Shown here piece after piece: positions 10,220-43,377 of a stretch of DNA of 64,000 nt. Source of the stretch: Thermoplasmata archaeon (lineage in GTDB: Archaea; Thermoplasmatota; Thermoplasmata; Thermoplasmatales; Thermoplasmataceae); NCBI GenBank assembly GCA_021810045.1, contig JAJZJR010000009.1:1-64000 (forward strand), in the 5' to 3' direction. How positions within the stretch are numbered: the first letter of the stretch is position 1; each line of letters begins with the position of its first letter. A model generated the notes under the pieces. The model worked only from the letters and a program-made list of their open reading frames with translations. It was not told the DNA's origin and ran no database searches. The position numbers and the translations under genes were made by a program.

Positions 10220-12229
10220 TTATCTTCCCTTGTAGTCCGGCTTTCTCTTTCCAAGGAATGCAGAAATTCCTTCTTTCAGATCTTCTGTTCCGTAGAGAAG
10301 CCCCATTGCAATTGATTCCATCTCAAGGCCATTGTCAGCGGAAACTTCGCTGCCCTTGTAAATAAGCTTCTTTGCCATCGCTGCCGAAACAGGTGCAATC
10401 CTTACGGCGAGATCCTGGGCGAGCTTGTCGGTCTCGGATTCAATACTTTCCTCGGGGAACAGTTTCGAAACAAGTCCGATTTCATGTGCGTATTTGCCGT
10501 CAAACCTGTCTCCTGTGAGGATGAGATATGCAGCCCTGGACATTCCAACGAGTTTTGCAAGCCTCTGGCTTCCTCCCCAACCGGGGACAAGCCCTAGTGT
10601 TACTTCGGGGAATCCTATCACTGACTCAGGAGTTGCAACCCTTATGTCGCACCAGGTTGAAAGCTCAAAGCCTCCTCCAAGTATATGGCCTTTCATTTCT
10701 GCAATTGTTATCTTTGGAACCTCTGAGAGGAGCCTGAAGGTTCTCTCACCAAGTCTTGAGTTCTCTGCAAAGTCCATTGGGCCGCTGAAAAACTGTGTAA
10801 GCTGTGCACCTGCAGACAGGTTCTTCCCCTCGCCTCTCACAACGATAACATTGATCTCCCTGTCGTTCCAGAGTGTCTTCAGGTGTCTTTCAAGGCCTTC
10901 AAGAACCTCTGAGTTGATGAGGTTGTTCCTGGTGTTGGAGAGTGTAAGGTATGCAACCTTCTTCTCAACATCCCTTCTGAGAGAAACCGGCCCCCCTTCG
11001 CCTGTCTGTGCCGGTGCTGATTCCTTGCCCTTCTCAGGTGCAGCTGATTCCTGGGGTTTCGCTTTCTTCCCTGAAAGGAGTTCCTTGAGTTTTCCCTCTT
11101 CAATTGATTTGGTGGGGTAGAAGATCTTAGTGTCAAATTTCTCTGAGAGTTTCTGGAGCTTCCTCTTTATCTCGGCATTGGTCAGGCCTTCTGCTACTGA
11201 AATAGGGCCGAATGGCCGGTTCATACCCAGCTTGACACCTGTTTCAATGTCGGCGGGTTCGGCAATGCCCTCTTCAATGATCTTTGCAGCCTCGTTTATC
11301 TCAACAGCAAGAACATCCATGAGATCTATTACGGTGGATGGTGCAGCCTTTGGAATCTGAGCCTTGCCATTCTCCCATACATAGAATCCCTTTCCGGACT
11401 TGAGGCCCAGTTCCTTCTTTTCCATGAACCTGTTGAAGTATCCGCACTTGCCATATTCCTTGTCAAGTGCATCCCTGTAGTAGTTCAGTGAATGCACTAC
11501 AGTATCTATGCCTACGTAATCCATGAGCTCGTATGGCCCCATGGGAAGACCCTGTGCCTTGCCGAATGCATCAACTTCCTCTGGTTTTGCAAGTCCCTTG
11601 TCAAGGATCTGGCAGAAGAGAAGGCTCTCAGGGGCGTTGATCCTGTTCACCACGAAACCTGGTGTATCCTTGAGAACCCTAATTGGGGTCTTTCCAATTT
11701 TCTTTGAAAACTGGTAAGTTTCCTCAAAGACTTCATCAGAGGTCTTATCTGACTTTATGACTTCAACAAGCTTCAGTACAACCGGTGGGTTGAAAAAGTG
11801 AAGTCCAAGCAATCTCTGCGGGTTTGAGACTTCCTGTGCCAGTGTTGATATTTTAATGTTTGACGTATTGGAGGCAATTATTGCATCCGGCCTGCAGTTC
11901 TGCGAAACCTCCTTGAGGAGTTTCACCTTGAGGTCAGGTATTTCAGGCACAGCCTCAATAATCATGTCTGAGGAACTTACGGCACCCTTGAGGTCAGAAG
12001 TGAATGTCATCCCTCCAAAGACCCTGTCAGCATTTTCCTGGGTTAATTTACCGGATTTGACCATTCTGCCAAGACTGTTTTTGATTGCAATTTTAGCTTT
12101 TTCAAGAGCTTCAGGGAATGCATCCTCAAGGTTGACCCTGAATCCTGCAAGTGCAACAACCTCGGCAATGCCATGGCCCATTAACCCTGCCCCAACCACT
12201 GTTACTTCCTTTATTTCCAGTAAACTCAC
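10220..12229 (-). CDS. Fused 3-hydroxyacyl-CoA dehydrogenase / enoyl-CoA hydratase
   Basis: A 669-residue bifunctional beta-oxidation enzyme. Residues 1-390 are the dehydrogenase: NAD site VVGAGLMGHGIAEV at about 10-23, then LGLHFFNPP and the C-terminal helical domain GRPFGPISVAE-like (here NRPFGPISVAE). A Pro/Ala/Glu/Lys-rich linker near 395-425 joins it to a crotonase domain with AGAQLTQFF, GGGFELSTWCD (first catalytic Glu) and GFPEVTLGLVPGWGG (second catalytic Glu). It hydrates enoyl-CoA and oxidises 3-hydroxyacyl-CoA. This order (dehydrogenase first) is the archaeal arrangement, opposite to bacterial FadB. Its ATG overlaps the stop of the upstream SCP2 gene. Confidence 0.92.
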   Translation of the reverse strand: MSLLEIKEVTVVGAGLMGHGIAEVVALAGFRVNLEDAFPEALEKAKIAIKNSLGRMVKSGKLTQENADRVFGGMTFTSDLKGAVSSSDMIIEAVPEIPDLKVKLLKEVSQNCRPDAIIASNTSNIKISTLAQEVSNPQRLLGLHFFNPPVVLKLVEVIKSDKTSDEVFEETYQFSKKIGKTPIRVLKDTPGFVVNRINAPESLLFCQILDKGLAKPEEVDAFGKAQGLPMGPYELMDYVGIDTVVHSLNYYRDALDKEYGKCGYFNRFMEKKELGLKSGKGFYVWENGKAQIPKAAPSTVIDLMDVLAVEINEAAKIIEEGIAEPADIETGVKLGMNRPFGPISVAEGLTNAEIKRKLQKLSEKFDTKIFYPTKSIEEGKLKELLSGKKAKPQESAAPEKGKESAPAQTGEGGPVSLRRDVEKKVAYLTLSNTRNNLINSEVLEGLERHLKTLWNDREINVIVVRGEGKNLSAGAQLTQFFSGPMDFAENSRLGERTFRLLSEVPKITIAEMKGHILGGGFELSTWCDIRVATPESVIGFPEVTLGLVPGWGGSQRLAKLVGMSRAAYLILTGDRFDGKYAHEIGLVSKLFPEESIESETDKLAQDLAVRIAPVSAAMAKKLIYKGSEVSADNGLEMESIAMGLLYGTEDLKEGISAFLGKRKPDYKGR

Positions 12230-31326: not shown

Positions 31327-31454
31327 GTTAGACGTCCTATGGATAAAAATAATCATTATCATTTCCAGTTTTTCTCAAGGAGTATTACACTGCAAAAAGT
31401 AAGGAAAATATAAAGGAAGATGAAAGGCTTCAGGACATGTAAACGGTGAGTTTA

Positions 31455-32195
31455 ATGGTGGACATTGTTGTTCTGATAAAGCAGATGCCGGACCTGGAGC
31501 AGGTCAAGCCTGATCCCACAACCGGCGAACCGCAATTGAAGAATGTGCCCCTGAAACTGGAAAACCTCAGCGAAAATTCAGTTGAGGAAGCAGTTAGGCT
31601 TAAGGAGAAATATGGTGGAAAAGTCACTGCAGTTATCTTTGGTAACGAGCAGTCAAGTGCCATTATGAAAAAAGCCTATGCAATGGGCGCAGATGAAGGA
31701 TATATTATTACAGGATTCAAGGGCAATAACCCATCTCTCACAGCGAAGGTCCTTGGAGAGAAGATCAAGGCATTGAAACATGATATAGTGATTCTTGGAA
31801 ACCAGTCAGCAGATTCCATTTCAGGCCTTCTTGGAGGGAAAATAGCAAGTTATCTCGGAATCCCTCTTCTTGGAAATGCAAATTCAATAGAGGTTGATGG
31901 CTCAACAGTTAAGGTAAAGAGAGCCCTTGAGGAAAACAATCAGGTTATCCAGGCAAACTTCCCTGTTGTTGTTTCTGTTACACAGGAAATCAATGAACCA
32001 AGACTTCCACCAGTAATGCAGATAATGCAGGCCGGGAGGAAACCTATCAATACTGAAGCTGCAACCATTACCGGTAGGGAAGTCAGGATTATTTCAAACA
32101 AGGCACCAAAGAGCGAGAGAAAGAAGATTATCTTCGAGGATGTGGACAAGGGAATTGCAGAGGTAGCAAAGGTACTGAAGGAGGAGATGAGATGA
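31455..32195 (+). CDS. etfB: Electron transfer flavoprotein, beta subunit
   Basis: About 246 residues. The N terminus VDIVVLIKQMPDLEQVKPD is the classic ETF-beta start, and NPPSLTAKVLGEK-like wording, GNQSADSISGLLGGKIASYLG and the C-terminal PRLPPVMQIMQAGRKP agree with the family. With EtfA it takes electrons from acyl-CoA dehydrogenases. I set the start at ATG 31455, with GGTGAG five bases upstream; a GTG at 31446 overlaps that site. Its stop overlaps the etfA start by four bases. A TATA-like AATATAAAGG lies near 31,408. Confidence 0.92.
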   Translation: MVDIVVLIKQMPDLEQVKPDPTTGEPQLKNVPLKLENLSENSVEEAVRLKEKYGGKVTAVIFGNEQSSAIMKKAYAMGADEGYIITGFKGNNPSLTAKVLGEKIKALKHDIVILGNQSADSISGLLGGKIASYLGIPLLGNANSIEVDGSTVKVKRALEENNQVIQANFPVVVSVTQEINEPRLPPVMQIMQAGRKPINTEAATITGREVRIISNKAPKSERKKIIFEDVDKGIAEVAKVLKEEMR

Positions 32196-33085
32196 AGGCA
32201 CTGGTATTTTCAGAGTTCCCTGAAACTGCAGCCCAAATGGTTACCTACCTGAGAAAGCTCGGCGAGGCAGATGCTGCAACATTATCATCAAAGGCAGATG
32301 CACTCAAGGAATACGGTGCAGGCAAAGTGTATGCACTTAACGGCCAGATGCAGTCCGACAATGTGTCGGCGTTTCTTGCAGAAACATACAAATCCGGTGG
32401 ATATGACTACATATTCGTTGCCTCAACAATTCTTGGAAGAGAGGTTGCAGGTGCTGTGAGCCAGTCCCTAGACGTGGACATAACATCTGAAATTGTTGAA
32501 TTCCAGCCTGGTCAGGGAAATGTTCACACCAAAAGGAATTTCCTCGGAGGAAAGACTGTTCTTGAAGAGGAGTCTGAGTCCAGGGTCTTCACCTTTGCCC
32601 CAGGCATAGTTGATGCAGAAAAGGCAGGTTCTGCCTCTGAAGTCGCATCTGTAGAGCTCAAGCCTTCTGCAGTTACAGTTGCAAGTGTAGAGGAGAAGCA
32701 GACAAGCGGAGTTAACCTTGAGAAAGCCAAGATTATCGTCAGCATCGGAAGAGGCGTCGGAAAGAAGGAAAACATTGCACAGGTTGAACCTCTTGTAAAG
32801 GCTGTCAATGGTGAACTTGCAGGTTCAAGACCTGTTTGTCTTGACTACCAGTGGCTCAGTGATGAGAGACAGGTGGGAATATCAGGCAAGAAAGTCAGGC
32901 CAAACGTGTACATTGCAGTGGGCATATCCGGTCAGATCCAGCACATAGCCGGAATGAGGGGCTCGAAGATTGTGGTGGCACTTAACAAGGATAAGACCGC
33001 ACCGATCTTTGATGAGTCAGACTACGGTATTGTTGGAGATCTCTTCCAGATTGTTCCCAAACTAGTTCAGGCACTGGGAGCCTGA
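32192..33085 (+). CDS. etfA: Electron transfer flavoprotein, alpha subunit
   Basis: A 297-residue protein. The C-terminal FAD domain is clear: KIIVSIGRGVGKKENIAQ, GSRPVCLDYQWL, VGISGKKVRPNVYIAVGISG and HIAGMRGSK, ending in DYGIVGDLFQIVPKL. The N-terminal domain is slightly shortened relative to bacterial EtfA. It pairs with EtfB and binds FAD and the acyl-CoA dehydrogenase partner. The gene is coupled to etfB and followed 127 bases later by the membrane oxidoreductase etfD. Confidence 0.92.
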   Translation: MKALVFSEFPETAAQMVTYLRKLGEADAATLSSKADALKEYGAGKVYALNGQMQSDNVSAFLAETYKSGGYDYIFVASTILGREVAGAVSQSLDVDITSEIVEFQPGQGNVHTKRNFLGGKTVLEEESESRVFTFAPGIVDAEKAGSASEVASVELKPSAVTVASVEEKQTSGVNLEKAKIIVSIGRGVGKKENIAQVEPLVKAVNGELAGSRPVCLDYQWLSDERQVGISGKKVRPNVYIAVGISGQIQHIAGMRGSKIVVALNKDKTAPIFDESDYGIVGDLFQIVPKLVQALGA

Positions 33086-33212: not shown

Positions 33213-35225
33213 ATGTACGTGTTTTCAATCATTGTCCTAATTGGCCTTCTGGCGGCTGCAGGACTATTCCTGTTTACAATTGTAAAGCTGCTGTGGAATG
33301 CCGTAAAAATACCTGAAAAGAAACCGGGCCTTAAGTTACAGCTTGGAAGGCGTATTTACCTTGTCATAAGGAACGTTTTCCTCCAGGCAAAGCTGTTTAA
33401 GGATCTTGGCGGCGGAATAATGCATGCCCTGATGTTCTGGGGTTTTATTGCATTTGCAGCATATTCGAGTGACTTCCTTTTGAGCGCTATTTTCCCGGGA
33501 TTTCACCTCATATCGGGGACCCTGGAAAGAGTAGCATTCTTCACCGTGGACATATTTGCAATGGTTGTCCTTCTGGACGTTATCCATGCCGTCATCAGGA
33601 GATGGGGCATCAAGATCAAGAGGTATCAGGGATACAACGGATTTGAGGCATGGTTCATCCTTTCACTTATCGCCATTCTTATGACAACATACTTCATCCT
33701 TGCTGTTCTCAGACTGGACCACATATCCCAGAATATTCCCGGGAGCATAGGGGAAAGCCTTGTTCCAATGAATACACCAATCAGCTATGCACTTGCTTCT
33801 GTTCTTCCGAAAATCTCCGTTTCGGCTGGTTATTATGTTTACTGGACGGCTTTCTGGATTCATGCCCTGGACTTCATGATATTCCTAGCATATATCCCAA
33901 CATCAAAGCACCTGCACCTCTTTGCAGCTCCTTTCAACGTACTGTTTGCAAAGGAAGACCAGGCAATCCTCAAGCCTATTGATTTCGAGAAGGAAACAAG
34001 ATTTGGTGCAACAGATGTCAGAGACTTCAACTGGAAGGATTACTTTGATTTCTATGCCTGTACAGAGTGCGGACGATGCACAGCCAACTGTCCCGCAAAT
34101 CTTACAGGAAAGACACTTTCCCCAAGGGACATAATCTGGGACATAAGGGAAACGCTCATGGCCCAGGGTAACGAGTACAGGACCAAAGGCGGGGACCGTG
34201 ATCAGATCTTCAAGACTGTTATCGGTGATCCCATAAAGGAAGAGGATCTCTGGTCATGCACAACCTGTATGGCCTGCGTCGAGCAGTGCCCCGTTATGAT
34301 CGACCATGTTTCCAAGATCGTGGACATGAGAAGATCACTTGTACTGAACCAGGGAAAGGCTCCAAGAGAGGTTATAGATCTCACAAGGAACATTGAACAG
34401 TATGGAAGTCCGTATGCCATTGACCCTTCGACCAGGGCTGACTGGGCAGAGGGCCTGGATGTGGTTGACCTTACAAAGACACCTGATGCACAGTATGACG
34501 TACTTTACTGGGTTGGATGCGTAGCAAGTTTCGACAAGAGAAACCAGGAAGTTGCAAAATCCATTGTAAAGATCCTGAAGAAGGCAGACGTGAAGTTTGC
34601 CATCCTGGGTTCAAAGGAGAAGTGCACTGGTGATCCTGCGAGGAGAACCGGCAATGAATACCTTGCAGACATGATGATAAAGGAGAATGTGGAAACACTG
34701 AAGGCAAACCGTGTGCAGAAAGTCATCACCGGGTGTGCTCACTGCTTCAATTCCCTTAAGAATGAATACAAGGATTTCGGCATAGAACTCGAGGTACACC
34801 ACCATACTGAATACATCAATAAGCTCATCTCTGACAAGAAGCTCAATGTGAAATCCATTGACTCAGACACACTAGAGAAATACACGTACCATGATCCATG
34901 CTACGTCGGCAGATATAACAAGACCTATGAAGAGCCAAGGGACGTTGTGAAGACATTCGCACTGAACTACGAGGAAATGGAAATGAACAAGAGCAAGGCA
35001 CTCTGCTGTGGAGCCGGTGGAGGAAGACTCTGGATGGAGGAGAAGGAAGGCACAATGATCTCCCACAAGAGAATAGAACAGGCTGACAATGTTGGGGCCT
35101 CAACTGTGGTAACTGCATGTCCTTACTGTATGACAATGCTTGACGATGCCAGAAAGACCACAGGCAGAGAAGAGAAGATGAAGATCCAGGATGTCTCTGA
35201 GCTTATAGCCAGCAGGATTGAATGA
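33213..35225 (+). CDS. etfD: EtfD-type membrane ETF:quinone oxidoreductase (NarI-like, Fe-S, CCG domains)
   Basis: A 670-residue membrane protein. Residues 1-240 hold about six membrane segments of the NarI/DsrM-like cytochrome domain, with histidines such as GGIMHALMFWG and FWIHALDFMI that may bind heme. Two 4Fe-4S motifs follow, CTECGRCTANCP near 285 and CTTCMACVEQCP near 350, then two CCG domains with CTGDPARR, TGCAHCFNS, HDPCYVGRY, LCCGAGGG and ACPYCMTM. Such proteins pass electrons from ETF to menaquinone. The etfB-etfA-etfD order supports this role. GTGTGAGTT before the ATG is a fair ribosome site. Confidence 0.88.
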   Translation: MYVFSIIVLIGLLAAAGLFLFTIVKLLWNAVKIPEKKPGLKLQLGRRIYLVIRNVFLQAKLFKDLGGGIMHALMFWGFIAFAAYSSDFLLSAIFPGFHLISGTLERVAFFTVDIFAMVVLLDVIHAVIRRWGIKIKRYQGYNGFEAWFILSLIAILMTTYFILAVLRLDHISQNIPGSIGESLVPMNTPISYALASVLPKISVSAGYYVYWTAFWIHALDFMIFLAYIPTSKHLHLFAAPFNVLFAKEDQAILKPIDFEKETRFGATDVRDFNWKDYFDFYACTECGRCTANCPANLTGKTLSPRDIIWDIRETLMAQGNEYRTKGGDRDQIFKTVIGDPIKEEDLWSCTTCMACVEQCPVMIDHVSKIVDMRRSLVLNQGKAPREVIDLTRNIEQYGSPYAIDPSTRADWAEGLDVVDLTKTPDAQYDVLYWVGCVASFDKRNQEVAKSIVKILKKADVKFAILGSKEKCTGDPARRTGNEYLADMMIKENVETLKANRVQKVITGCAHCFNSLKNEYKDFGIELEVHHHTEYINKLISDKKLNVKSIDSDTLEKYTYHDPCYVGRYNKTYEEPRDVVKTFALNYEEMEMNKSKALCCGAGGGRLWMEEKEGTMISHKRIEQADNVGASTVVTACPYCMTMLDDARKTTGREEKMKIQDVSELIASRIE

Positions 35226-36338: not shown

Positions 36339-38447
36339 TCAGCTTGCAGTCGGCAAGGTTTGCGGAATCGGTTGATTTGCATTTGCTTTTTCATTCCAGG
36401 CTGCAGATATTTTCCTTCTCAGCAGTAAGGAATTAATTACAACCGATGTGGAACTCATGCCCATTGCAAACGCTGCAATAATTGGCAGGAATGTATACAG
36501 AGACAGACCGAAGAACGGGACAAGTATGCCGCCTGCAACAGGAATGAGTGCTGAGTTGTATCCTACGGCCCAACCGATGTTCTGCTTTATTTTGACAATG
36601 GTTTTCTCCCCCAGGATCTTGGTAAGGACAAGTTGCCTGAGGTCATTGTTCAGCAGGACTATATCGCCGCTTTCTCTTGCTATATCGGTACCTGAACCCA
36701 TGGCAATCCCTACATCGGCTGTTTCAAGTGCCACAGTATCGTTGATACCGTCACCTGTATACATCACAAAGTCTCCTTTCATCTGGTAGGCCTTGATGAT
36801 TTCAGCTTTTTCTGAAGGTAACACCTCAGCGTGAACATCATCTATTCCAAGTTCCTGTGCTATTCTTTCTGCCTCTGATCTGGAATCACCCGTTACTATT
36901 GCAGTACGGATTCCCATATCCTTCATCCTGGATATTGTCCATTTTGCACTTTCCCTTACTTTGTAGGAAAGTCTGATGATGCCGATTTCCTCACCCTGGG
37001 ATTGCACTGATACCACAGAACCGCCAGCAATGCTCGATCTGGTGACTTTTATTTCCTTGCCTTCAACCATGCCGGATATGCCAATACCTGGAATTTCCTT
37101 TATTTCCATTGAACTGACAGGTACAAGCCCCAATTTCCCTGCTTCCGCAATGATTGCCCTGGCTATTGGATGGTTGGAGGCTGATTCAACCGATGCTGCC
37201 TTTGAAAGTACTTCTTCCTTTGAGAGAGATCCTTCCGGGATTACCTCTGTAATCACGGGATCCGGTTCAGTGAGTGTACCGGTCTTGTCGAATACTGCCC
37301 TGTTAACCTTGGAAAGCCTGTCCAGTGCACTGGTATTCTTGATTATGATGCCGTTCTCGGAGGCTTTGTTGGAAGATATGAGAAGTGTAATGGGTCCTGC
37401 CAGGCCAATTGCACAGGGACATGCAACCACAACCACCGACACAAAGGCAAGTATGGCTATTTCAAGGGATAAGCCGTAGCCGGTGCTGGTGAGGTAGAAA
37501 TACCAGAAAAGGCTGGCTGTCAGTGCTGCTGCGATCACCACTGGAACAAATATGGATGAAAAAACGTCCGCAATTCTCTGCACTTTTGCTCTTCCTGATA
37601 TGGCCCTCTGAATCAGTTCATAAATCTGGCTCACCGTGCTGTTCTTCCCGGTTCTCGTGACTCTTATCTTCAGTACACCGTTCAGGTTGGAAGTGCCTGA
37701 TGAAACTTCATGATCTGTGGTTCTCAGGACAGGTTCCTGCTCCCCGGTCAGCATGGATTCATCTATTTCGCTCCTGCCTTCAAATATAATCCCATCTGCA
37801 GGAATGGTTTCACCAGGTTTGACAAGGATCCTGTCATCAACCATGATCTCTTCGGTCTTTTTGTCCAGCACCTCTCCGGTTTCAGATATATAATGGACTG
37901 TATTTGGTATGAGCTTCAGCAGTTTGCTTGCTGCCCTGTTTGCCCTGGTTTTTGTTACATTCTCCACAAAGTTGCCTGTGAGTATCAGCGTTATTATGAA
38001 TGCAGATGCATCAAAGAATACTTCAGAGCCTGGGATGGAACCAGGTTGGAAAGTAACATATGTTGAAAATATGAATGCGGTGAGTGTACCCATTGAAATG
38101 AGCAGGTCCATGTTGCCGGACTTGCTCTTGATTGCATGATATGCCCCGTTGTAAAAACCAAGACCTGAGTAGAACTGGACCGGTAAGGTCATTGCGAAAA
38201 GTACCACATCTTTAAGAAATGTTCCAGAGAAGAAGGAGGCTGGAACCACATAATTGATCAGCAATATTGGTATTGCCAGAGACCAAGCCACCACGAGTTT
38301 TCTCTTGAGATTCCTGGCTTCCTTTTCCGGAGAACTGTATTTCTCCTGGCAGGTTTTTGAACAGAAATAATATGTTTGCCCATCGATGACAGAGAAGAGA
38401 TCACTGTCCTCGGGGACAAACATTCCACAAACCGGATCTGTAGGCAT
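36339..38447 (-). CDS. copA: Copper-translocating P1B-type ATPase with N-terminal YHS/TRASH domain
   Basis: A 702-residue heavy-metal pump. Instead of a usual HMA domain it starts with a YHS/TRASH motif, DPVCGM...YYFCSKTCQEKY (residues 4-40). Eight membrane segments, TGEQEPV in the actuator, CPC in VVVACPCAIGLAGP (about 358), the phosphorylation site DKTGT, SNHPIARA with the P1B histidine, and TGDGINDTVAL in the hinge are all present, so it should be active. The CPC form and the downstream residues fit Cu(I) export. It is co-transcribed with a small TRASH gene 12 bases upstream and divergent from a TRASH regulator. Confidence 0.92.
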   Translation of the reverse strand: MPTDPVCGMFVPEDSDLFSVIDGQTYYFCSKTCQEKYSSPEKEARNLKRKLVVAWSLAIPILLINYVVPASFFSGTFLKDVVLFAMTLPVQFYSGLGFYNGAYHAIKSKSGNMDLLISMGTLTAFIFSTYVTFQPGSIPGSEVFFDASAFIITLILTGNFVENVTKTRANRAASKLLKLIPNTVHYISETGEVLDKKTEEIMVDDRILVKPGETIPADGIIFEGRSEIDESMLTGEQEPVLRTTDHEVSSGTSNLNGVLKIRVTRTGKNSTVSQIYELIQRAISGRAKVQRIADVFSSIFVPVVIAAALTASLFWYFYLTSTGYGLSLEIAILAFVSVVVVACPCAIGLAGPITLLISSNKASENGIIIKNTSALDRLSKVNRAVFDKTGTLTEPDPVITEVIPEGSLSKEEVLSKAASVESASNHPIARAIIAEAGKLGLVPVSSMEIKEIPGIGISGMVEGKEIKVTRSSIAGGSVVSVQSQGEEIGIIRLSYKVRESAKWTISRMKDMGIRTAIVTGDSRSEAERIAQELGIDDVHAEVLPSEKAEIIKAYQMKGDFVMYTGDGINDTVALETADVGIAMGSGTDIARESGDIVLLNNDLRQLVLTKILGEKTIVKIKQNIGWAVGYNSALIPVAGGILVPFFGLSLYTFLPIIAAFAMGMSSTSVVINSLLLRRKISAAWNEKANANQPIPQTLPTAS

Positions 38448-38459
38448 ATTTTGTGCCCC

Positions 38460-38600
38460 TTATCTGCTGTGTTTCAGGGGGTTCTTGTCGAACTCTGTCT
38501 TGCAACCTTCGCTGCAAAAATAGAAGGTTTTTCCCTGAAATTCACTCTTCAGATTGGTGCTCTCCTTCACTTTCATGCCACATATAACATCTGTTGCCAT
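38460..38600 (-). CDS. 46-residue YHS/TRASH metal-binding protein
   Basis: A very short gene (ATG 38600, TAA 38460) coding for a single YHS/TRASH unit: DVICGMKVKES, then GKTFYFCSEGCKTEF, with three cysteines at the positions expected to bind a metal. It precedes copA by 12 bases on the same strand. It likely serves as a copper chaperone or buffer that hands Cu(I) to the pump, playing the role of CopZ/CopM in other archaea; this is inferred from domain and location. Its length would make most gene finders miss it. Confidence 0.8.
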   Translation of the reverse strand: MATDVICGMKVKESTNLKSEFQGKTFYFCSEGCKTEFDKNPLKHSR

Positions 38601-38675
38601 AACAGCACATCACTTCTTTGCAGAAATAGTATCCCTATACATAATGTTAATATATAATATCAATTTCATTACATT
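38601..38675. promoter_or_regulatory. Divergent promoter of the copper module
   Basis: The 75 bases between the small TRASH gene and the regulator contain TTAATATATAATATC at about 38,647-38,661, about 20-25 bases before the regulator start, so that transcript would be leaderless. ACTATTTCTGCAAAG and ATTATATATTAACATTATG on the other strand can serve the copA side. The overlapping boxes make it a likely operator for the TRASH regulator. Confidence 0.5.
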
Positions 38676-39200
38676 GTGAGAAGAAACTTTTCTGAACTTG
38701 AGCAAAGACTTATTGTTCTCTTAAAGAAAGATGCCAGAATGAGTATAATTGATATCAGTAAAGAACTGAACGTAAGTAGAATTACTGCAAAGAAAATGAT
38801 GGACTCCCTTGTAAATAGCGGAAAAATAAGGAAATTCACGGTTACTCTGGATGAGGAGGAACGTGATATGGTTCTTGTCTATACAGATGATATCTCAAAA
38901 ATACCTGAAAACCTAATAGTGGAGAGTTTTCAGCTTATTGATAATTCATTCATCGCGGTGCTCTTTTATGAAGATCTCATGAAGATCAAGGATACAGTCA
39001 TTAAAAAGGTTGAAATTGCCGCCTCCAGAAAACTCAATGAAAATCTGACAAGGATGGAAAGCATACATTGCGATTATTGCCATTCCGAGATAAAGGAGAA
39101 ACCAATCGTCGTGGAAATAAACGGGAAAGCCTATTACGCGTGCTGCCCCAACTGTGAACGTGATCTTAGGAAGAGAAGGGAAATAATGGTTGATAAATAG
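38676..39200 (+). CDS. Copper-responsive regulator: Lrp/AsnC-like HTH plus TRASH domain (CopR/CopT type)
   Basis: A 174-residue protein. Residues 1-55 are an AsnC-like helix-turn-helix (LEQRLIVLLKKDARMS, ISKELNVSRITAKKMMDSL). A middle alpha/beta region follows and the last 45 residues are a TRASH metal-binding domain, CDYCHSEI then YYACCPNCERDL. The known archaeal relatives CopT/CopR control copper pump operons and sense Cu(I) through TRASH cysteines. It is divergent from the small TRASH gene and copA with 75 bases between. The start is GTG at 38676. Confidence 0.88.
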   Translation: MRRNFSELEQRLIVLLKKDARMSIIDISKELNVSRITAKKMMDSLVNSGKIRKFTVTLDEEERDMVLVYTDDISKIPENLIVESFQLIDNSFIAVLFYEDLMKIKDTVIKKVEIAASRKLNENLTRMESIHCDYCHSEIKEKPIVVEINGKAYYACCPNCERDLRKRREIMVDK

Positions 39201-40005: not shown

Positions 40006-41199
40006 ATGGAAGATGATTCCAATGTTTATTTGGTTAATTTTAAAAGAACAGCCTTCTCAAGATCCCGCCCTAACGATCCGGAGAGGGATGTATTCAATCC
40101 CATAAGGATGGATGAGGCACTTGGGAACCTTATAAAGAATGCAGTTTCCGAAACAGGCATCAGGCCAGAAGAAATCAATGATGTCATCACCGGATGCGCA
40201 ATACAGGCAGACGAGAACTGGCTCTATGGAGGAAGACATCCTGTGTTCATGGCAGGTCTCCCCTTCAATGTTCCATCAATGGCAATGGACAGGGCTTGCT
40301 CCTCCTCACTGAATGCTATCAGTATAGGTGCAATGGAAATCATGACCGGCAACTCGGACATCGTTTTTGCAGGAGGAATGGAGCACATGACCCATGTTCC
40401 CCTGTCAAACAACCAGAACGTTAAGCCCAACATCAAGCTCATCGTAAGGCCGGAATTTGCAAGATATGATATGACAACCTCTTACAACATGGGCCTTACA
40501 GCAGAAAAACTTGCAAAACTCAGAAACATATCCAGGGAGGAAATGGATAAATTTTCCCTTGCAAGCCATCAGAGGGCAGCCAAATCCCAGGAAGAAGGCT
40601 TCTTCAAGGACGAGATTCTTCCGGTTGAGGTGGAGCAGGGAGATGATTTTGTAACCATCGACAAGGATCAGAGCGTAAGACCACAGACCACTCTTGAATC
40701 ACTTGCACAGCTGCCTCCTGCATTTGTTAAGGACGGTGTCATTACAGCAGGAAACTCCTCACCACTCAATGCAGGGGCTGCACTTACAGTGCTTATGTCG
40801 GGGAAAAAGGTCCGTGAATACGGCATAAAGCCACTTGCCCGTGTAAAGGGATTTTCGTGGGCTGCAGTTGATCCAACAATTATGGGAGAGGGCCCCGTAC
40901 CGGCTTCCAGGAAGCTTCTTGAAAAGGAAGGTCTGAAAGCTGACGACATAGATCTGTGGGAGATAAACGAAGCATTCGCAGTGGTTGCCCTGAATGCAAT
41001 GAAAGAGATCGGCATCGATCATGACAGGGTGAATATTCATGGCGGAGGAGTTGCACTGGGACACCCGCTTGGTGCAACAGGTGCAAGAATTGCAGGGACT
41101 CTTGCAAGGCAGCTTAACGAGAAGAAGAAAACCTATGGTATAGCTACACTCTGCGTTGGCGGAGGCCAGGGATACTCAGTTCTTTTGGAGAGGATGTAA
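40006..41199 (+). CDS. Thiolase (acetyl-CoA C-acyltransferase)
   Basis: A 397-residue enzyme of the degradative thiolase type. The nucleophilic cysteine is in MDRACSSSLNAI (about residue 97), the catalytic histidine in GGGVALGHPLGATGAR and the acid/base cysteine in LCVGGGQGYSV near the end. It cleaves 3-oxoacyl-CoA with CoA in the last beta-oxidation step; many archaeal thiolases instead work in isoprenoid synthesis with an HMGCS partner and Zn protein, but here the gene leads an operon with two acyl-CoA dehydrogenases, favouring beta-oxidation. Confidence 0.92.
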   Translation: MEDDSNVYLVNFKRTAFSRSRPNDPERDVFNPIRMDEALGNLIKNAVSETGIRPEEINDVITGCAIQADENWLYGGRHPVFMAGLPFNVPSMAMDRACSSSLNAISIGAMEIMTGNSDIVFAGGMEHMTHVPLSNNQNVKPNIKLIVRPEFARYDMTTSYNMGLTAEKLAKLRNISREEMDKFSLASHQRAAKSQEEGFFKDEILPVEVEQGDDFVTIDKDQSVRPQTTLESLAQLPPAFVKDGVITAGNSSPLNAGAALTVLMSGKKVREYGIKPLARVKGFSWAAVDPTIMGEGPVPASRKLLEKEGLKADDIDLWEINEAFAVVALNAMKEIGIDHDRVNIHGGGVALGHPLGATGARIAGTLARQLNEKKKTYGIATLCVGGGQGYSVLLERM

Positions 41200-41200
41200 A

Positions 41201-42328
41201 ATGGATTTTGATTTCCCGGAAGATATTGTAAATGCTAGAAAGAAGGCCCAGGAATTTGCAAGGAAAGAAATAAACTCTGAGATGGCAAAGAAGTATGACA
41301 GGCTGGAGAAGTTCCCGGAGGAACTCAGGAAGAAAGCCTTCGAGTACGGCATCATAGACTACCAGAACCCATGGTCTATGCTTGTCACAATCGAAGAACT
41401 GTGCAGAGCTGATGCAGGCCTCGGAATATCTGCTACTGTCAGCCTTTTCGGGGCAGAAGTGATCATGCTTTTCGGCAGCGATGAGCAGAAGCAGAAATAC
41501 CTGTCAATGGTGCAGAACGGAGACAAGATCATGGGTCTTGCCGTAACAGAGCCTGGAGGAGGAAGTGACGTAGCCGGAATCACCACAAGGGCTGTTGAGA
41601 AGGATGGCAAGTACATCGTGAATGGTGCCAAGATGTTCATCACAAACGGTACTATAGCAGACTTCTTCGTAATGCTCATCAGAACTGAGGAGGTTGAGGG
41701 CAAGAGGCATCATGGCCTATCAGCATTCATAGTGGACTCGGACCTGCCAGGATTTACAAAGAATAAACTCAGCGGAAAACTCGGTGTCAGGGCGACAAAC
41801 ACCGCGGAACTCATTCTGGACAATGTTCCAGTTCCAAAGGAAAACCTCATTGGTGAACCCGGCAAGGGATTCTACTATATCATGACATTCTTCAACATAA
41901 GCAGGGCTTATGTTGCAGCTCAGGCAATAGGGATTGCACAGGGAGCCCTGGACAGGATCCTTGAGCATCTCAACAGGCTAACAAAGGAAGGAAAAACAGC
42001 CCTTGCAGAAGAGGTGCAGTTCCTTGCATCGGATATTGCAACAAGAATTGAGGCATCCAGACTCCTGGCATACAAGGCCGCCTCATACCTGTTCCAGTTC
42101 AGGCCCAACCCAACACTGACAAGCATGGCAAAGGCCTATGCCTCCGAAACGGCAACATTTGCAGCTGAAAAGGCCCTCGAAATAACAGGATACTCAGGAA
42201 TCACAGGAGACCTTGAGAGGTTCTTCAGGGATTCAAAGATTATGGAAATCTGGGAAGGAACCAGCGAAATCGAGAAGCTGATCATTGCAAGGAATTTACT
42301 GAAAGAATATGCAGAGGTGAACCAGTAA
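41201..42328 (+). CDS. Acyl-CoA dehydrogenase (catalytic)
   Basis: A 375-residue flavoenzyme. FAD and substrate motifs are GLAVTEPGGGSDVAGI, VNGAKMFITNG and the C-terminal IWEGTSEIEKLIIARNLL, in which the Glu of EGT is the catalytic base. It introduces the alpha-beta double bond in acyl-CoA and gives electrons to ETF, encoded 6 kb to the left. The start at ATG 41201 lies one base after the thiolase stop. The next gene begins within its stop codon (TAATG). Confidence 0.92.
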   Translation: MDFDFPEDIVNARKKAQEFARKEINSEMAKKYDRLEKFPEELRKKAFEYGIIDYQNPWSMLVTIEELCRADAGLGISATVSLFGAEVIMLFGSDEQKQKYLSMVQNGDKIMGLAVTEPGGGSDVAGITTRAVEKDGKYIVNGAKMFITNGTIADFFVMLIRTEEVEGKRHHGLSAFIVDSDLPGFTKNKLSGKLGVRATNTAELILDNVPVPKENLIGEPGKGFYYIMTFFNISRAYVAAQAIGIAQGALDRILEHLNRLTKEGKTALAEEVQFLASDIATRIEASRLLAYKAASYLFQFRPNPTLTSMAKAYASETATFAAEKALEITGYSGITGDLERFFRDSKIMEIWEGTSEIEKLIIARNLLKEYAEVNQ

Positions 42329-43377
42329 TGTCTATGGAAGAACAGGACCTCTTGAGATCCGCAGTTAAGGAATTCGCACAGAAATCTATACAGGACAAGG
42401 CACTGAAAATAGAACATGAGGGAGTAGACAAGGCACTCCTGCAGTCTCTGGCATCACAGGGATTCCTGGGTGCAAGAATACCTGAAAAATATGGTGGTTC
42501 AGGCATTGATCTTCATGGATACCTTACAATAGTGAATGAACTGGCAACATTCTCTCCTTCAGTTGCAGCACTTGTTATGCTTGTGAACTCAGTTCATGCA
42601 CCGCTCATCGGCGACTCTGAACCTGAAGTCATGAAGAAACTGGCATCAGGAGAAGCAACGGTATCAACATCTCTTTCGGATGTGCTTGAAGGAAACTTCT
42701 CAGCAACATCACTGAAGAAAAACGGCTCAAATCTCAAGGGTGCTGTAAACCTGTCTTCACTGTACCGTGGTGAGTACGCTATCGCCCTGAACAGGGACGA
42801 CGGACACCTGTATCTCTTCAAGGATGGAGTAAAGGGAGTGGAGGAGGATTCAGGCCTCTCGTTCAGAGGTCTTTCCAACGGTTCTCTCGAAATCGATTCC
42901 TCTGACTACACCGTTCTTTCTGAAAAGGGAGAAGATGCCCTGAAAGCAGTTGTGGATAACCTGGACCTTGAAGTGGCTGCACTGGCACTTGGTACCGCAA
43001 AAGGTGCTCTTGACAAGGCAATCGATTACGTAAAAGTAAGGAAAACCTTTGAAAGGCCCCTAAAGGATTATGGGCCTGTTGCTTCAGCACTGTCCAGGCA
43101 CATGGCAGAATATCTTGCACTGTCTTCATATCTTGAATCCGTTGACGAGAACGACTCAAGAGCAAAACTTACCCTGAAGGTACTCTCTGTGGATCTTGCA
43201 AAAAGAGCTACAAAAGCTGCTCTGCAGTATCATGGAGGATACGGGTACATTGAAGACACAGGTGTGGAAAAATTCTACAGGGATGCCATGGGACTTTCAA
43301 TACTGTTCCAGAGACCCCACCATGATTCAATGAGATTGTCCAAAGAAATATTTGGAGAAAAATCCGGGTACCTATGA
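42328..43377 (+). CDS. Acyl-CoA dehydrogenase-like subunit without the catalytic Glu
   Basis: A 349-residue member of the same family, shorter than usual. The C-terminal domain is recognisable (VRKTFERPLKDYGPVASAL, HGGYGYIEDTGVEKFYRDA), but where active enzymes have I-Y/W-E-G-T the sequence reads SILFQRPHHDSM, so no catalytic glutamate is present. The EPGGGSD loop is also replaced. This suggests a non-catalytic partner that forms a heteromer with the preceding enzyme, as known for paired FadE proteins in mycobacterial steroid catabolism. The TAATG coupling agrees with equal synthesis of both. Confidence 0.85.
   Translation: MSMEEQDLLRSAVKEFAQKSIQDKALKIEHEGVDKALLQSLASQGFLGARIPEKYGGSGIDLHGYLTIVNELATFSPSVAALVMLVNSVHAPLIGDSEPEVMKKLASGEATVSTSLSDVLEGNFSATSLKKNGSNLKGAVNLSSLYRGEYAIALNRDDGHLYLFKDGVKGVEEDSGLSFRGLSNGSLEIDSSDYTVLSEKGEDALKAVVDNLDLEVAALALGTAKGALDKAIDYVKVRKTFERPLKDYGPVASALSRHMAEYLALSSYLESVDENDSRAKLTLKVLSVDLAKRATKAALQYHGGYGYIEDTGVEKFYRDAMGLSILFQRPHHDSMRLSKEIFGEKSGYL

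Follow-up and report, generated by a model that had tools for sequence, protein, structure and literature searches.

The question raised by this locus is whether two adjacent acyl-CoA dehydrogenase (ACAD) genes encode two separate proteins, or the unlike subunits of a single enzyme between which one set of binding sites has been divided. The genes lie in a stretch of 64,000 nucleotides from a Thermoplasmata archaeon (contig JAJZJR010000009.1), referred to here in its entirety as the window. Gene A (41201-42328, +) runs from an ATG at 41201 to a TAA stop at 42326-42328, and encodes an ACAD of 375 aa predicted to be the alpha subunit, which is catalytic and binds the flavin ring. Gene B (42328-43377, +) runs from an ATG at 42328 to a stop ending at 43377, and its product of 349 aa is the predicted beta subunit, non-catalytic and gripping the ADP part of FAD. 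As was originally noted, the two are joined by TAATG (42326-42330, +, read from the sequence), the last A of the stop of gene A being also the A of the ATG of gene B, and this one-base overlap makes translational coupling of the two likely.

Both proteins belong to the ACAD superfamily by their fold and Pfam domains over their full length, A matching the N-terminal, middle and C-terminal ACAD domains, and B the N-terminal and C-terminal domains with no match to the middle flavin domain. A contains a TEPGGGSD loop (residues 116-123; 41546-41569, +), a FITN flavin-ring loop (residues 146-149; 41636-41647, +) and the EGTSEI motif that had been noticed in the first gene, found here as IWEGTSEI with the catalytic Glu352 (42254-42256, +) at the MCAD-type position in the J-K loop; this residue is Glu in 53/53 orthologues. 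In B the equivalent stretch does read SILFQRPHH, and when this is aligned with MEIWEGTSEI of A the glutamate column is occupied by Phe327 (43306-43308, +). The reported absence of the EPGGGSD loop from B is likewise upheld, no recognisable TEPxxGSD being present in its sequence, and the FITN flavin loop is gone as well. What B keeps is the FAD-gripping pair Arg238..Phe241 (RxxF; 43039-43050, +), each residue of which is found in 54/54 B sequences and lost in A, together with a QYHGGYGY loop (residues 300-307; 43225-43248, +) of the kind that grips the FAD of the neighbouring subunit, in which G303, G304, G306 and Gln/Asn300 are each conserved in 54/54. Alignment also indicates that the PExYGGxGxD loop usually found in the first domain is shorter by approximately 10 residues in A (window 41366-41380, residues 56-60), while B retains this loop.

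AF2 models based on the orthologue alignments are confident for both proteins (mean pLDDT 89.5 for A and 93.1 for B) and match known ACAD structures over their whole length, A matching 1ukw (VIA Z 46.0, rmsd 2.2, 365 residues aligned) and B with 7xp7 (VIA Z 39.0, rmsd 2.8, 344 residues aligned). For this reason the prediction for B is that the whole ACAD fold is present, its flavin domain being shortened and degenerate.

In homomeric ACADs the FAD is bound between two chains, one of which provides the flavin ring site and the base, while its neighbour helps to hold the rest of the cofactor. For human SCAD, the FAD contacts reported from one monomer include F152, L154, S155, T187, G160 and S161, among others, and those reported from the adjacent monomer include R297, Q365 and G369 (PMC13027082). 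A set of 11 cis sites (flavin ring and catalysis) and 7 trans sites (the FAD of the neighbour) was mapped onto 5lnx, the Bacillus subtilis homotetramer MmgC, to which A is 39% identical in a structural alignment, and every sequence was scored against it; the equation of scored columns with human SCAD residues is a reading from shared motifs. Homotetrameric ACADs such as 5lnx, SCAD and MCAD resemble A-B in fold and chemistry, but unlike A-B they hold both sets of sites in one chain. The same is observed in ordinary full-length ACADs from the same alignment, 36/36 of which have 9-11 of the cis sites and 5-7 of the trans sites, five other ACADs of the window genome being among them; this group does not include eight rows from bacterial pairs, two truncated rows or a paralogue of A (L113). 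Orthologues of A, by contrast, keep 11/11 cis sites but only 0-3/7 trans sites in 53/53 cases, the losses falling on the trans Arg, Phe, Gln and Gly sites, and the Gln column being Glu in 48/53. Orthologues of B show the complementary pattern, with 7/7 trans and 0-6/11 cis sites in all 54 distinct sequences. The column of the catalytic glutamate in these is F in 30, L in 14, G in three, M, I and S in two each and T in one; as it is never Glu or Asp in B and is Glu in every A orthologue, the loss of Glu from B is not a matter of chance.

The locus accordingly has the features of a heteromeric ACAD, namely adjacent genes for two different ACAD chains of which only A has the catalytic Glu, and the sequence sites, cis in A and trans in B, would together make up one FAD site per heterodimer. 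Very probably A is the alpha subunit and B the beta subunit of one such enzyme, most likely an alpha2beta2 tetramer that contains two FADs and has two active sites. As far as the scored columns can tell, the loss of trans sites from A, taken with their retention in B, is stronger evidence for a heteromer than are the losses in B. It is this that makes it improbable that A functions as a homotetramer, with B a separate pseudoenzyme sharing no FAD site with it, whether as regulator, stabiliser or docking partner for thiolase or ETF. Such an arrangement would suit the intact catalytic set of A, the existence of an A-like paralogue with no B beside it, and the fact that A lies as tightly beside a thiolase gene as beside B; however, A has given up most of the sites by which homotetramers hold the FAD of the neighbour, and these same sites, which a scaffold would not need, are intact in every B. 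A change of the Gln alone (Q365H) is reported to have stopped tetramer formation in human SCAD (PMC13027082).

The paralogue in question is a lone second A-like ACAD (L113:2882-4015 (-), genome G309) from which the trans FAD sites are lost and which has no adjoining B. Its neighbours resemble acyl-CoA ligase, 3-hydroxyacyl-CoA dehydrogenase and hydratase, and the protein may make use of the B encoded at the main locus.

It could also be supposed that B is itself a catalytic ACAD with its base elsewhere. In LCAD and IVD the catalytic Glu is reported to lie in helix G (PMC11153573, PMC12369846), and B of the window has the sequence LDLE in this helix, with Glu215 close to the IVD/LCAD position. 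The IVD-type column nevertheless lies 3 residues before this position, at which only 24/54 B orthologues have Glu. The true IVD/LCAD column (Leu212 in B) is variable, being mostly Leu, Ser, Ile, Met or Ala, the Arg of the next column is gone, and no conserved helix-G Glu of this type was found in the 54 aligned B sequences. The acids that are conserved in B (Glu29, Asp61, Asp310, Glu314 and Asp319) all lie outside both known base positions. Catalysis by B through Glu215 was rejected on its off-column position and poor conservation, and with the flavin-ring and TEPxxGSD loops also lost, B probably has no flavin to reduce; a catalytic B is very improbable. The presence of a catalytic Glu at another position in B, which the original prediction had named as one observation that would overturn it, is therefore not what is seen.

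The distribution of the two genes was surveyed in 292 Thermoplasmatota genomes, and in all 117 genomes for the order Thermoplasmatales. At the level of the phylum, A is found in 30/292 genomes (at least 554 bits, with the next best match at 436), and B in the same 30, although split in one (G028). Within the order, A is present in 86/117 and B in 88/117 genomes, and there are 86 same-strand adjacent A-B pairs across 85/117 genomes, a count from which 4/94 listed rows were excluded as ordinary ACADs of 379-382 aa in family f4 (two being L117 and L118). Only 4/90 B matches and 2/88 A matches are unpaired, contig ends accounting for some of these (L037, L041). Across 51 loci, among which some organisms are represented twice, once from each of two collections, the distance from A to B ranges from -17 to +17 nt.

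The level of constraint on B bears on the simplest of the alternatives, that it is a decaying, functionless ACAD duplicate. B is evolving faster than A, with a mean column identity of 46% vs 69% (from alignments of 50/54 B and 49/53 A sequences), and broken copies exist in two genomes, both of which might be expected of decay. Against this, the trans sites remain intact in all distinct B sequences, which represent three families within the order; dN/dS is 0.05-0.11 in 8/12 pairs of B, the other 4 being saturated, and 0.01-0.04 in 11/12 pairs of A; and adjacency to A is retained in 85 genomes. B is under purifying selection, and decay, rejected on the intact trans sites and dN/dS, is hardly credible at all. 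In one of the two genomes with broken copies (G028), B is split into two frames next to an intact A (L074:4243-5259), and in the other (G012) one copy of B carries stops (L076); both are possibly recent decay or assembly error. The unpaired matches to A and B, the lone A-like protein, the split B and the faster evolution of B all count against the heteromeric reading.

If A and B are indeed subunits of one enzyme, the A-B dimer would bind the flavin ring and the acyl-CoA through A, while Arg238, Phe241, Gln300 and Gly303-304 of B would grip the ADP half of the FAD held by A. Glu352 of A would remove the acyl-CoA alpha proton, the beta hydride would go to N5 of the FAD, and the mirror site in B would be dead and empty. 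As an A-A dimer would have no grip on FAD, and a B-B dimer neither flavin nor base, each subunit would need the other. Electrons would exit via the ETF encoded in the same window (beta and alpha, 31446-33085, +; NCBIfam ETF matches below cut-off), which is the likely electron acceptor of the enzyme, and from there perhaps pass to the adjoining Fe-S oxidoreductase (33213-35225, +; weak NCBIfam Fe-S oxidoreductase matches), a possible ETF-to-quinone route.

Bacterial pairs that match the IpdE2 family model were used as a positive control, the matches coming from the Saccharothrix carnea family and one Streptosporangium genome. As all of them fall below the cut-off of the IpdE2 model, they can only be described as IpdE2-like. 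Scores were obtained for 34/46 control rows, the rest being short, repeats of other loci or weak matches. The alpha-like rows (n = 12) have 9/10 cis sites, with the Glu counted apart, 1-2/7 trans sites and a Glu in helix G in 12/12; the beta-like rows (n = 21) have 5-7/7 trans sites and 1-7/10 cis sites, and the canonical Glu is absent from all of them. The remaining row of the 34 scored is alpha-like and has the canonical Glu. The archaeal pair divides its predicted sites as these IpdE2-like pairs and the crystallised heteromers do. Two actinobacterial tandem ACADs (L056 and L057) were considered as further examples and rejected, because in each of them most cis and trans sites are still present in the two chains alike.

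The heteromers closest in design are the mycobacterial alpha2beta2 ACADs ChsE4-ChsE5 (FadE26-FadE27) and ChsE1-ChsE2 (FadE28-FadE29), which are described as consisting of two ACAD chains with the Glu and flavin-ring site in one. In these the alpha chain is reported to bind the isoalloxazine and carry the Glu, while the beta chain has no such Glu and contacts the ADP-ribose (PMC11153573, PMC8399759), and the crystallised heteromeric ACADs are reported to contain two FADs and two active sites per tetramer (PMC8399759). Unlike the Chs pairs, A-B is archaeal and lies not in a steroid cluster but in a run of beta-oxidation genes that includes a thiolase. No close sequence kinship between them was seen; the ChsE4/ChsE5 and ChsE1/ChsE2 chains were not among the matches listed from PDB sequence and fold searches, which is no evidence of absence. 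The suggestion that the archaeal genes match the alpha2beta2 heteromers of mycobacterial steroid degradation consequently divides into two parts. The design appears to be shared, as judged by the complementary loss of sites in A and B and the like pattern in IpdE2-like pairs. Kinship with the steroid pairs is not favoured, as A groups with ordinary Thermoplasmatota ACADs, although topology tests do not reject it.

In two trees, from which short, near-identical or very long-branch rows were left out, A clusters with ordinary Thermoplasmatota ACADs that keep both sets of sites (L112, L114, L115), with SH-aLRT values of 99 and 91, and the bacterial alphas form their own clade in the best trees. 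Profile scores to A are 411-435 bits for ordinary Thermoplasmatota ACADs, against 84-87 for two bacterial alphas. Furthermore, helix G of A has Ser234/Arg235 and not Glu, its catalytic residue being in the J-K loop, unlike the helix-G Glu of the control alphas of the main bacterial type. These results, along with a window context of thiolase, HAD/hydratase fusion, acyl-CoA ligase and ETF, in which no steroid-pathway gene was seen among the scanned proteins, make it unlikely that A-B is a heteromer of steroid or terpenoid type, related by descent to the bacterial pairs and serving bulky substrates. That reading does draw on AU tests, which do not reject a clade of A with the bacterial alphas (p = 0.53 with one alpha and p = 0.28 with ten), and on the grouping of B with the bacterial beta rows at a support of 84, where long branches are a concern and long-branch attraction may be the cause. 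An independent origin of the archaeal pair is suggested by the sequence comparisons; it is not claimed as proven, because of these AU tests and this grouping. A fuller account, to which slightly less than even weight is given, is that an ordinary MCAD/SCAD-like homotetramer native to the Thermoplasmatales became an obligate alpha2beta2 enzyme, in a development separate from that of the bacterial steroid ACADs, and has been kept as the thiolase-linked dehydrogenase of general beta-oxidation.

Among other known pairs, those of the IpdE1-IpdE2-like type in steroid-degrading bacteria resemble A-B in their complementary loss of sites, but B scores only 47 bits against the IpdE2 model NF050027, which has a cut-off of 450. 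PimCD and related dicarboxylate ACAD pairs also have a large and a small ACAD chain, and a heterotetramer has been suggested for relatives of PimCD (PMC12543098), but A scores 109 bits against TIGR03204 (pimC; cut-off 624) and B 32 bits against TIGR03203 (pimD; cut-off 653). Membership of IpdE2, PimCD or any other curated ACAD family was rejected for both A and B, as all scores are below the cut-offs. A tandem ACAD pair was also observed in an actinobacterial genome (L144:6058-8637 (+), G348), the second protein of which has the canonical Glu and has lost its trans FAD sites. This alpha-like protein is similar to A in its MCAD-type Glu, its lost trans sites and its position beside an ACAD that keeps them, and shows that an alpha-like protein with the Glu in this position is not unique to archaea. 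It differs from A-B in gene order and sequence (about 195 bits to the A profile), and its partner retains EG at the Glu site. The pair is perhaps of a FadE23-FadE24-like type.

The genes around A-B indicate the process in which the enzyme is likely to act. A thiolase gene (40006-41199, +; NCBIfam PRK06445, 650.7 bits, cut-off 511) is the first of a conserved thiolase-A-B run, its end being 0-10 nt upstream of A in 52/53 loci; in the remaining locus the edge is 86 nt from the start of A. Among loci longer than 8 kb (n = 23, with differing flank lengths), ETF beta is found in 10, acyl-CoA ligase in 14, the HAD/hydratase fusion in six and the Fe-S oxidoreductase in five. The ligase and thiolase genes belong to a single run with A and B in L048, L050 and L052 (Acidiplasma aeolicum), and the HAD/hydratase fusion adjoins this run. 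The likely role of A-B, to judge from its neighbours and motifs, is the first step of fatty-acyl-CoA beta-oxidation. The setting is one of general beta-oxidation, and nothing in it calls for the bulky or steroid-like substrates that had been envisaged. Thermoplasmatales genomes from acid mines are reported to contain a full set of fatty-acid oxidation genes, in which the role of each ACAD is hard to discern (PMC3750248).

In searches of an open-access library, heteromeric ACADs were found described in bacteria and none in archaea, so A-B is apparently the first archaeal example, in line with the novelty expected of it. If the heteromeric reading is true, such enzymes are not confined to steroid metabolism in bacteria but also have a core part in the beta-oxidation of an archaeal order, and activity would depend on co-expression of two genes that most Thermoplasmatales genomes carry. 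The locus would then provide a clear case of the change from a symmetric homomer to an obligate heteromer by complementary loss, the nearest relatives of A being ordinary ACADs. Were the archaeal origin independent, this would imply that the split-FAD design is not tied to bulky substrates, and that it arose when a symmetric site lost one half in one chain and the complementary half in the other. Comparison of cis with trans FAD sites also offers a simple sequence test for pairs of this kind in any genome.

Two other features of the window can be described. At 10220-12229 (-), a 3-hydroxyacyl-CoA dehydrogenase is N-terminal to a fused enoyl-CoA hydratase, which, going by match positions, is the reverse of the order in bacterial FadB. 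At 36339-39200, a P-type ATPase resembling heavy-metal exporters is divergent from a winged-helix regulator with an archaeal TRASH domain, the two being likely to constitute a metal-response unit.
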